Assembly: GCA_025558095.1 (NCBI GenBank) | Contig: JAIVFI010000015.1 | Location: 434,001-498,000 of the forward strand | Length of the DNA stretch: 64,000 nucleotides | Reading direction: 5' to 3' | Source: Hyaloraphidium curvatum | Taxonomy: Eukaryota > Monoblepharomycota > Hyaloraphidiomycetes > Hyaloraphidiales > Hyaloraphidiaceae | Notes under the pieces: model-generated | Seen by the model: only the letters and a program-made list of their open reading frames with translations | Database searches by the model: none | Told to the model about the DNA's origin: nothing | Position numbers and translations under genes: made by a program | Shown here: piece after piece, positions 46,538 to 50,786 of the stretch | Position numbering within the stretch: the first letter of the stretch is position 1 | Layout: each line of letters begins with the position of its first letter

Positions 46538-48270
46538 CTAGTCGAGGTCGTCCCAATTCTCCTCGTCAGGAGACGTCTCCACCCTTCGCTTGTTCCTCGC
46601 CGACGCGTCGGGCTTGCGGTCGAACGGCTCCACCGTCTTGCCCAAGAGCGTGGCAAAGGTGCCGAGGGCCTGCGCTAACTTGGCCTTAACATGCGGGTCC
46701 TCTGCTGAGGCGCGGCCGTCTTGGTCTGTCGAGGAGGCGCCGACCGTGTCACTTGCTGCTCCCAACTTTAGTGCGGCAGCGCCTTCGGCTATGCACTTGA
46801 GGCAATCTGCAGGGTCGTGCACCCAGTCAAAAGTCCGATGGAGATGCTGAAGAAGGCGCAAGCCTCACAGTCAATTTTCAGTGCAAGAAGCGTCCACGCC
46901 TTCTTTCCGCACTTCTTGCAAATGAAATAGGACCTCAAGTTGCTCGGGATCATGTTTCCGATCTCCTCCATCTGCTCCACGCTGTACATGGAGCCCGGTG
47001 CCGACAGCACAGCTTCCGCCGCGAAATCCGTGATGTCGACGGGCTTCTCGCGCGTGATGAGTCCGCCACTGGTCAGGAGGAGGCCCTCAAAGGTCGTTTC
47101 GATCGCCTTGCCGACAGGCGTGTCGACCACGCCGCATGGATCTTCCAGCACCATTGTGGTCAGCCTCTTGAGGACTTCTGCTTCCCGCTGAATGATCTGT
47201 TCCGATGTAGGCTGGGGAAGCGAGACCACGTTCCTCGCCTCGCAATACTCCGGCGTCGAGGAAACGTACGACGACGACGCAGGAAACATTGGAGTAGACC
47301 CCTGGCTTCCGGGTTCGGCCCAGGCGTCGAGGTCATCCGTGGGTCGGCCACCGGATCCAAAGCCGCCGAAAGCGGTGGAAACTGCCTGATCGGGAACGAC
47401 CACGTCGTTCTCGTCGCCTGCGGAATGATGCAGCAAAGGCTCCTCTGTCTGCTTGCCCTTCACGGAGCGTTGAGGCTTCGCCCGCTTCTTGCCCGGTTTG
47501 CCGACCTGCTGCCCGCTCTTGTCCATGGCAGGCGGCGGCACCTGTTGGAGACTCCCCTGCTCCTTGTGGAAATCCGTGATGTGCCCCAGGTACGTTTTGT
47601 TCGTCACCAGGTGATCCTTCAGTTCAAACTCAACGTTTTCGTCGCACTCCAAGCAGGCCCATCGCTGCACTCCTTCTTCATCGCGGAAGCCAACGATCCG
47701 AGGATCTTTATTGTAGTGCAGATGGTCCGTGGGGATGGTTACCCGGATCGGAGACGCAGCGACGACGCGCCTGAGCTCCTCCAAATTTGATCGCTCCCAG
47801 TCCTTTCGCGCAGAGGTTTGCAGCCCCTTCAGGCTCTTAAACGAGTCCTTCCCCTTGCCTTTGATGAACTTTGTGGGTGCTTCCACGCACGTGCATCCCA
47901 GCAGCGGTACCCAAGGCCGCGAGGCCTCGGTTACCGGTTCCGGGGCGCCGGAGGAGGAGCTGGAGCCCGCGTTTTTGCCGGGGCCGGCCGCATCGGGATC
48001 GGGATAGTCCTGCCGTTGCATGCCGAGAAACACGTCACCGGAGGATGGGTGGACCAGTACCGCAAAGGCCGGCACGTCGTCGGGGGATTTCCCGCGCTTC
48101 CTAAGCTCTTCACGCATGAATGCCTCCGTATCAAACGGCTCGTCGGCTCCGGGTTCCTCGTAGGAATAGCCGGCGTCGTCTCCACAGTCGATCCGGTCTG
48201 GGTCCTCGCGGCCGTCCTCGTCCGCTGAAGCATCGTCCGAACCAAAATCCCCTGCAAAGTATTGGGACAT
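46538..48270 (-). CDS. Unrecognised protein with two Cys-pair (probable zinc) sites
   Basis: Exons 48270-46869 and 46806-46538; 556 aa. I do not recognise a family. Visible parts: an acidic N-terminus (MSQYFAGDFGSDD, residues 1-50), a helix 'FMREELRKRGKSPDDVP', a β-rich region ('WVPLLGCTCVEAPTKF'), a C2H2-like finger near residues 195-230 ('WACLECDENVEFEL', then two His), a Lys-rich and Ser-rich linker, a helical region ('EAEVLKRLTTMVLED'), and a C-terminal CxxC pair ('FICKKCGKKAW', then 'YCLKC') ending in acidic 'ENWDDLD'. The 62-nt intron is needed to rebuild the second Cys pair. Chromatin or RNA binding is plausible but unproven. Confidence 0.7.
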
Positions 48271-48507
48271 CCCTCGGTGAGCCCGTAGGAAGCGGTGGCG
48301 GCTTGGCGTTCGAGTTGAGCGGAACGATGGGCGGGCGGCCGGTGGGCGGCTGCCGGCCGGTGCCAGCAGCGAGCACCTCCAAAGCGTCTCCGAGTCTGGC
48401 CCGCAGGCGGCCCCAGCCGACCCTCCAAAATCCCTCGGACGCCTTTCCATTATGAAGACCTGCGAGATCGTCGGGATTCCGGGGCCCTTTCGCGCGATGG
48501 AGCTGTG

Positions 48508-48542
48508 GACCACCCCGGACCACCCCAGCGGGGATATATAAG
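48508..48542 (+). promoter_or_regulatory. TATA-box promoter with a duplicated GACCACCCC element
   Basis: TATATAAG sits at 48535-48542, preceded by two copies of GACCACCCC at 48508-48516 and 48518-48526, exactly 10 bp apart (one helical turn). It is the clearest TATA promoter in the window and points to the microprotein ATG at 48689. Confidence 0.7.
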
Positions 48543-48688
48543 CTCGGGCCCCGCCGGTACCCTCCCACACTTCCAGCACCAGCATCTTTGCCTCGGCATC
48601 TCTGCACTCTCTTCCGCCACTCGTAAGCCACGCCGCCACGCCCGGCTCGGTCTGCACCACTGATCTGGTTCCCAGACTCCTCATCAAG

Positions 48689-48868
48689 ATGGGCAACGTC
48701 GTCTCTGGCGTCGTCGACGTGACCGAAGTCGTCAGCAAGATCGTGCCCCTCCCTTGCACGGCTTGCGGCCACCCCACCACCCAGCACACCCGCGTGGGGA
48801 ACGACGGTCCCCACCGCGTCTACCGCTGCTCGTGCGGGTCGCACTGCAAGCTGCTCGTGCCCACTTGA
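48689..48868 (+). CDS. 59-residue zinc-ribbon microprotein, candidate N-myristoylated
   Basis: An uninterrupted 60-codon ORF begins MGNVVSGVVDVTEVV and carries Cys-23 and Cys-26 (CTAC), then Cys-47, Cys-49 and Cys-53 (CSCGSHC), with Gly-His and Arg between: a compact zinc-ribbon-like layout. Gly-2 followed by Asn and Ser-6 (MGNVVS) fits the N-myristoylation consensus. It lies 147 bp downstream of a strong TATA box. I recognise no family. Very short length is the main reason for doubt; regular Cys spacing, promoter and codon use typical of its neighbours support a real gene. Confidence 0.6.
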   Translation: MGNVVSGVVDVTEVVSKIVPLPCTACGHPTTQHTRVGNDGPHRVYRCSCGSHCKLLVPT

Positions 48869-49310
48869 GGCGAGTTCGCCGGCCGCGTTCCGCATGCTCG
48901 AAGCTGACACCGTTGCGCCTCCCCAGCAGCGCGAGGAAGCGTCGAGGACGGGATCTCGCTCGGGGTTGCAGCAGTTTGGGTTGGGGGTGGGTGTGACGGC
49001 CGGACGAGGGGGGGACTTGGCCGCACGCTAGGGCATTCTTTCTGTACTGGCGACGATCGGTAACACAAGCCCGTCCCGAACCTGCCCGCGCTGTGCCAGA
49101 TCGCATGCCGCCTACATCCGGGATCCGCCCTTGCACCGGGACCTTCACTCGCATGACCCGTCCCGTCCGCTCACCGTACGAAAAGCTTGCGGGGTTGCGA
49201 GACCGTGTAGTGAGCGGTCGACCCGCGGACCGCGCCCCAAGACAAAGAGCCAGCGATCGGGCCCGCCACTCCCTTCCCCCGATCGGCACTTCAGCCGGCG
49301 CCGATCCTGC
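48869..49310. other. 442-bp intergenic stretch between the microprotein and PTPA
   Basis: It holds the 3' UTRs of two convergent genes. I see no conserved coding or RNA feature; frames present are short or low-complexity. Confidence 0.3.
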
Positions 49311-50786
49311 TCAACCCGACGCCGAGCCGCCTCCCCCCTCCCCCCCGACTGCATCCCCGCCCCCCACCCCCTCCATCTGCCCCCACGGCACCGCCGCCCC
49401 CATCCCCAGGTGCTGCACCACCACCCTCTTGCCCAGCACCTCCCCGCCCCACATCCTCAGCAGCCCCGCGTTGACCCTCTCCCACCCCGGCAGCCCGGAA
49501 ATGTCGTACAGCAGGGGCGAGTGCTCGTGGAAGGGGCCGCGCTTGGCCGAATGGAGGTGCGCGAGGGACGAGAAGAGGAGGTACGATGCGCGGTGCTTGG
49601 CGGCGAGGTCGGGATTGGGTATGGAGCGGGGGGGCAGGCCGCGGGAGCCTGGGATAGCGCTGTCAGGAGTCGCACCGGTGGGAAGCGGGGCGGGACCAAC
49701 CGATCAGCTGGGACGAGCCGAAGTAGTAGGGCAGGAACTGGTGGTCGTCGAGGCCCCACACGCCGTGGCTCCCCGCGGGCTCGAGGAAGTAGCGCTGCTG
49801 GAACCGCCTGCACACGTTCAGGTAGCTCTCGAGCACGTACAGCACGGCGGCGCGGTCGTCTTCGGGGGCGAGGAAGCGCAGCAGCGAGAGGGTCAGGAGG
49901 AAGGCGAGGAAGGAGAGCTCGTGGCCCGTGCCGTAGTCCAGGCGCTGCGCGGACCCGAAGGCGTCGAGGAGGTAGCCGCGGAGTTCGGGGACCGCGGGGT
50001 GCAGTTCCGGGGGGAGCATGTCACGGAGGAGGTCGGGGGAGCCGGCGGGGCCGGGGTGCTCGGGGAGCAGGGCCTCGAGCTGCGCGTGCCATTGGCGGAA
50101 GGCCGGGTCGCCGAAGCGGGCCTTGGAGCGGGATTCGCTGGGCTGGACGGCGTCGGTGAGGGCGTCGATGCGGGCCAGCATCGCGAGCAGGCTCTTCAAG
50201 TTCTAGAAAGGGAGGGTGCGACACCGGATCAACATGAGCGGGCATTTGAGAACGTGACGCGCCCCACCTCCGAGCGGTAGACGATCTGCGGCCGCTGACC
50301 CGGGTTCTCGTCCTCCCACTTTGCCAGCGCCGCGTCGTACTCCTCGCGGCTATCGCAAACGGTCCCGCCCTCTTCCCCCGGCACCCGCACGCCCTGCACG
50401 GCCTCGTTCAGGTCCTGGGCATAGTCCATGAGCCGCGCGAAGCCCTCTGATCGCAGCCACGCGCGCATCGCGGCCTCGTCGCCGTCTCTTGCCGAGGCGT
50501 CGACGATCTCGCGCTTCAGCGGCCGGCAGTCCTCCGCCTTGACGAGCGGCCGGCCCGCGCGGCGGCGGTACGGCGTGTCGAGACTGCCCGCAGCGCCGAG
50601 GCGGCGGTCGGGCGCGTACGCCGACGGCGGCGGCTTGGCGGGGGCGGCCGGCCGCGCGAACCCGTCGCGGGGAGCACCGAGCTGCTCGCGCACGAACCGC
50701 GACCCCATGAGCCCGGGCGCGGACGCCGCCGCGTTGTACACCGAGGACCCCGAGGGGACGGGCGGGTTCCGCGACGACGAGGCCAT
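49311..50786 (-). CDS. PP2A phosphatase activator PTPA (Rrd family peptidyl-prolyl isomerase)
   Basis: Exons 50786-50268, 50202-49701, 49648-49311; about 452 aa, with an N-terminal extension of ~85 residues before the domain. Family blocks: 'LKREIVD', 'LMDYAQDLNEAVQGV', 'RFGDPAFRQWHAQLE', 'LDYGTGHELSFLAFL', 'GVWGLDDHQFLPYYFGSSQL' and 'AKRGPFHEHSPLLYDIS'. PTPA/Rrd proteins activate PP2A catalytic subunits in an ATP-dependent manner. The C-terminus is Gly-rich. It is divergent from RAT1 (166 bp between ATGs). Confidence 0.94.

Follow-up and report, generated by a model that had tools for sequence, protein, structure and literature searches.

Whether a reading frame of only 59 codons, situated between two larger genes of a fungal genome, represents a real gene, and what kind of protein it would then encode, are the questions raised by this locus. 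The locus was analysed within a window of 64 kb (the whole stretch of DNA under study, 64,000 nucleotides, with a GC content of 63%), which belongs to an assembly of 31.9 Mb in 55 contigs, and the genome displays fungal traits, including chitin synthases of the Chitin_synth_2 type, a septin and short introns. The small ORF that the initial annotation had described, with cysteines at residues 23, 26, 47, 49 and 53 and an MGNVVS start, is present on the + strand, running from the ATG at 48689 to the TGA at 48868 and specifying the 59-aa product MGNVVSGVVDVTEVVSKIVPLPCTACGHPTTQHTRVGNDGPHRVYRCSCGSHCKLLVPT. It probably constitutes a real and spliced fungal gene with a TATA promoter, encoding a cysteine-rich protein, although its transcription and splicing are what we infer from the DNA sequence. 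The features of the locus are as follows.

48507..48526, + strand: the 10-mer GGACCACCCC, repeated perfectly head to tail in two copies, just 5' of the TATA box (repeat search)
48535..48541, + strand: TATA box TATATAA (TATAWAW matches at one other place in the window)
48566..48622, + strand: putative first exon (5'-UTR), CT-rich and free of ATG (sequence; start site presumed about 25-35 bp 3' of the TATA box)
48623-48675, + strand: probable 53-nt 5'-UTR intron, GTAAGC ... CTGAT (48660) ... CCCAG (pattern search)
48689..48868, + strand: 59-aa ORF with MGNVVS start and Cys 23/26/47/49/53 (sequence, GC3 0.90, codon score within the true-gene range)
49039..49046, + strand: TTTCTGTA, a possible, weak 3'-end signal (suggested by the sequence)

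Genomic surroundings of the small ORF

The small ORF sits in a gap of 1.04 kb, flanked by a zinc-finger-like gene in divergent orientation and a PTPA gene in convergent orientation, and it is the sole good candidate within this intergenic gap. The PTPA gene, the downstream neighbour, was assigned by Pfam, and its last exon appears from the sequence to stop at 49311; farther away lie genes for a family III CoA-transferase and for an XRN nuclease, also assigned by Pfam. The upstream divergent gene (- strand, 46789-48270) has a likely product of 493 aa, in which a stretch resembling C2H2 and, at the C-terminus, a CKKCG...CEAC pair (CxxC...CxxC) were observed, with sub-threshold Pfam matches and no family above the cut-off, and its reading frame remains open for 414 bp 5' of the likely start. 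The leaders of the small ORF and of this divergent gene also share an imperfect inverted repeat of 21 nt (86%), at 48295-48315 and 48619-48639. An Rfam search of the 64-kb window returned no match, and a bacterial promoter scan, a method ill-suited to a fungus, found nothing.

Coding potential

The GC3 of the small ORF amounts to 53/59 (0.90), a value matched by none of 100,000 shuffles. Its GC contents at the three codon positions, stop codon included, are 0.62/0.52/0.88, as compared with 0.67/0.50/0.86 for the CoA-transferase and 0.66/0.50/0.89 for XRN, which are conserved genes nearby, and its codon phase resembles that of known genes in the genome with respect to GC3, codon score and codon adaptation. 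In its own frame the ORF has a codon score of 0.112, as against -0.32 and -0.53 for the two alternative forward frames; of true 60-codon windows, 27% lie at or below the score of the ORF. By phase contrast the ORF ranks only 20th among the 132 small ORFs of the window, those ranked higher including exons of a septin and several ORFs lying antisense to other genes. The coding tests were selected after the ORF had been seen, and the probability that 48689-48868 is a real small protein-coding gene, as predicted from its sequence, is therefore held near 0.8 and not above.

A chance ORF would imply a non-coding RNA driven by the TATA box, with the ORF itself either free of selection or a very young de novo gene. 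Shuffled sequence yields about two ORFs of 45-80 aa per 1,040 bp, and no relatives were found in the same genome or in IMG/VR and GTDB contigs, both of which favour this explanation, whereas the strong GC3 phase, the good codon score, the cysteine pattern and the position of the TATA box, all combined, render it unlikely. Equally, the + strand ORF might be the shadow of a true gene on the opposite strand, represented by a - strand ORF of 631 aa (46789-48684) or of 254 aa (48131-48895); both of these frames are open over the region, and the - strand extension at 48271-48684 has a GC3 of 0.72 versus 0.71 for the adjoining gene body. Against this, the reverse frames across the small ORF have codon scores of -0.04, 0.02 and -0.68 versus 0.11, the 631-aa ORF stops short of the + strand ORF, and the gap stays free if the gene begins at a plausible internal start (MSQYFAGDFGSDD..., with its ATG at 48270), leaving an opposite-strand gene improbable.

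Promoter

The TATA box had been put forward as outstanding, and it is: TATAWAW occurs at two places in the 64-kb window (12890; 48534/48535) versus 0.64 expected, and only one of them precedes a small ORF. Of the 132 ORFs in the window that start with ATG and span 45-80 aa, a single one, the 59-aa ORF, carries TATAWAW at 40-250 bp 5' on its own strand. The distance from TATATAA to the ATG is 147 bp, and this ATG, with the context CATCAAGATGG, is the first after the TATA box, with none between the two.

Duplicated elements upstream had been claimed as well. Two copies of GACCACCCC do occur, at 48508 and 48518, and they are the only ones in the window, but this pair is found nowhere else in the genome and no recurrent element emerged. 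The 20-mer formed by the tandem GGACCACCCC pair has a single occurrence in the 31.9-Mb genome, so a shared promoter element is not indicated. When up to 3 mismatches are allowed, the GACCACCCC pair is found at 17 places genome-wide versus 5 in a backward control; with one exact pair and no clear recurrence at this tolerance, GACCACCCC was rejected as a genome-wide promoter element. A tandem duplication of 10 bp is a commonplace product of slippage and does not by itself make a regulatory element.

Leader and putative 5'-UTR intron

A 5'-UTR intron of fungal type is predicted as probable at 48623-48675. The pattern GTAAGC...CTGAT...CCCAG is present in 0.55% of shuffled leaders, and the GAPDH and histone H3 genes of the same genome contain short introns whose branch sites read CTGAC, CTAAC or CTGAT. 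Across the whole window, intron-type patterns number 34 versus 18-40 in shuffled DNA and are thus not commoner, for which reason the intron is considered probable and not proven.

Splicing also bears on whether the small ORF could be one exon of a larger gene, with its TGA spliced out and further exons downstream. Such an arrangement would have space in the 440-bp gap before the convergent PTPA gene, and introns are frequent in this genome; yet no convincing coding ORF lies downstream, where the ORF at 48894-49031 encodes 45 aa without cysteine, and no good donor site was noticed inside the 59-aa ORF on reading the sequence, which makes this arrangement very improbable.

Codon bias and expression level

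The initial annotation had envisaged a highly expressed protein, a view that the codon usage does not bear out. Codon adaptation of the small ORF is 0.57 versus 0.68-0.86 for the pieces of GAPDH, EF-1alpha and H3 that served as reference set, and the whole genes of the window span 0.26-0.66, a range that contains the small ORF. Its codon bias is intermediate and, judged from the sequence, does not support strong expression.

Two observations were made on the reference genes themselves. The sole GAPDH found in the genome (G000 C26:75118-75669; L031, L032) has a C-terminal part that looks nearer to the trypanosomatid type than to the usual fungal form, possibly reflecting horizontal replacement or an unusual lineage. 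Histone H3 is represented by several copies and one divergent variant (L038-L042, on C10, C11 and C3), and in most of these an intron directly precedes KSTELL or KSIELL.

Cysteine module

The cysteines form a first knuckle, C23-x2-C26, and a second, C47-x-C49-x3-C53. The pattern C-x2-C-x10-30-C-x1-3-C is found in 0.2% of random ORFs of such size, and the corresponding DNA pattern occurs once in 32 Mb, in the 59-aa ORF itself, and not at all in the backward control. The pattern is most naturally read as a putative small metal-binding module, a reading to which its sequence lends about even odds, while a real gene and the cysteine module, taken jointly, are rated somewhat better than even.

The more specific proposal of a zinc ribbon comes from the spacing of the cysteines and remains putative. 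The Pfam TFIIS ribbon (PF01096) matches the protein with 13.5 bits (E 0.065), short of the cut-off of 21 bits, and the second knuckle departs from the two C-x2-C pairs by which PF01096 is recognized. Similarity to the TFIIS-type zinc ribbons of this family (TFIIS, RPB9, RPA12, RPC11) is seen in the C-x2-C-G-H start, the Y-x-C-x-C-G end and a short beta hairpin predicted between the cysteine knuckles, but the protein has C-x-C in place of C-x2-C and no Asp-Glu catalytic loop; clear members of the TFIIS-ribbon family are located elsewhere in the genome (contigs C2, C7 and C37). Structure prediction had been suggested as a check on the ribbon, and AlphaFold2, run on the single sequence without an alignment, gave three strands (33-39, 42-47 and 52-56) at a mean pLDDT of 66.7; the value was about 80 across residues 31-50, and the N-terminus was poorly predicted. 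No ribbon accompanied these strands among the fold matches listed, either in Foldseek against the PDB (best E 0.83) or in VIA-align (best Z 2.4), and neither comparison gave a meaningful match. Matches to SH3 and ribosomal L2 folds (Z about 2) were dismissed as small beta-barrel background.

In the preferred reading, the protein consists of a hydrophobic, Val-rich N-terminal tail (residues 1-22) followed by a small Cys-rich beta module (residues 23-56), in which Cys 23 and 26 together with two of Cys 47, 49 and 53 would bind one zinc in a ribbon-like knuckle, and this knuckle might contact protein or nucleic acid.

N-terminus and putative myristoylation

Myristoylation had been suggested as a possibility, and it stays one on the strength of motif evidence. 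The MGNVVSG start fits the N-myristoylation motif PROSITE PS00008, which also fits the start of 2.2% of random ORFs. A genome search for the start pattern MGxVV gave 16 matches, with two further MGNVVS besides the 59-aa ORF. One of these (L010) was rejected as a protein start, being internal to a longer reading frame. The other (L016; C37:265658 region, - strand) is an upstream ATG reading MGNVVSS, MGNVVSSANIAAAVGIDSYVSE / MGNVVSSANIAAAVGIDSYVSELTDVQYERR, directly 5' of VPS15 exons whose kinase part matches PI3-kinase regulatory subunit 4/VPS15 (E 3e-34); its 31-residue start alone had no match among PDB sequences, and we take it to be the VPS15 N-terminus from its position and from the general features of the family. 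Yeast Vps15 is N-myristoylated, and with MGNVVS at the VPS15 locus this start is plausibly an accepted NMT substrate in the genome, which raises the putative myristoylation of the 59-aa protein to slightly under an even chance.

Like the myristoylated proteins with MGNxxS starts (e.g. VPS15), the 59-aa protein has Gly2, Asn3 and Ser6 and no Pro at position 7, but it contains neither a kinase nor another known domain, and no basic cluster beside the Gly. If the motif is used, N-myristoyltransferase would acylate Gly2 of MGNVVS, and the acylated tail would tether the cysteine module to membranes, producing a small membrane-bound adaptor. That a real coding gene, a metal-binding module and myristoylation are all three combined here is doubtful.

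Relatives and comparison with known proteins

No matching family had been recognized initially, and the searches agree: no match beyond chance was obtained in NCBIfam, PHROGs or PDB sequences, and none above threshold in Pfam. A PDB match to TAL effector repeats (E 0.057) was rejected, many tiny scores having been summed over the repeats. Within its own genome, a protein search at E up to 10 and the degenerate DNA pattern of the cysteine module recovered only the ORF itself and no paralogue, and a search of the genome for a flagellar radial-spoke family gave no match. No homologue was confirmed in IMG/VR viral and GTDB prokaryotic contigs, as expected for a fungal gene, and the literature search retrieved no paper containing MGNVVS and no fitting small fungal protein.

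In its size, five cysteines, lack of a family match and simple gene, the protein resembles the small Cys-rich orphan proteins that are restricted to particular fungal lineages. Many described members of this kind are secreted, whereas the 59-aa protein has no start resembling a secretion signal and would thus probably reside in the cytosol or on the cytosolic face of a membrane.

Implications

That the locus exemplifies an undescribed fungal family of small myristoylated, membrane-tethered zinc-knuckle proteins, with a dedicated TATA promoter and a 5'-UTR intron, is unlikely. By itself the gene answers no open question. If real, it adds another small gene to those that standard annotation is prone to overlook, and a 59-residue zinc knuckle tethered by a lipid, if true, would be a neat minimal adaptor.
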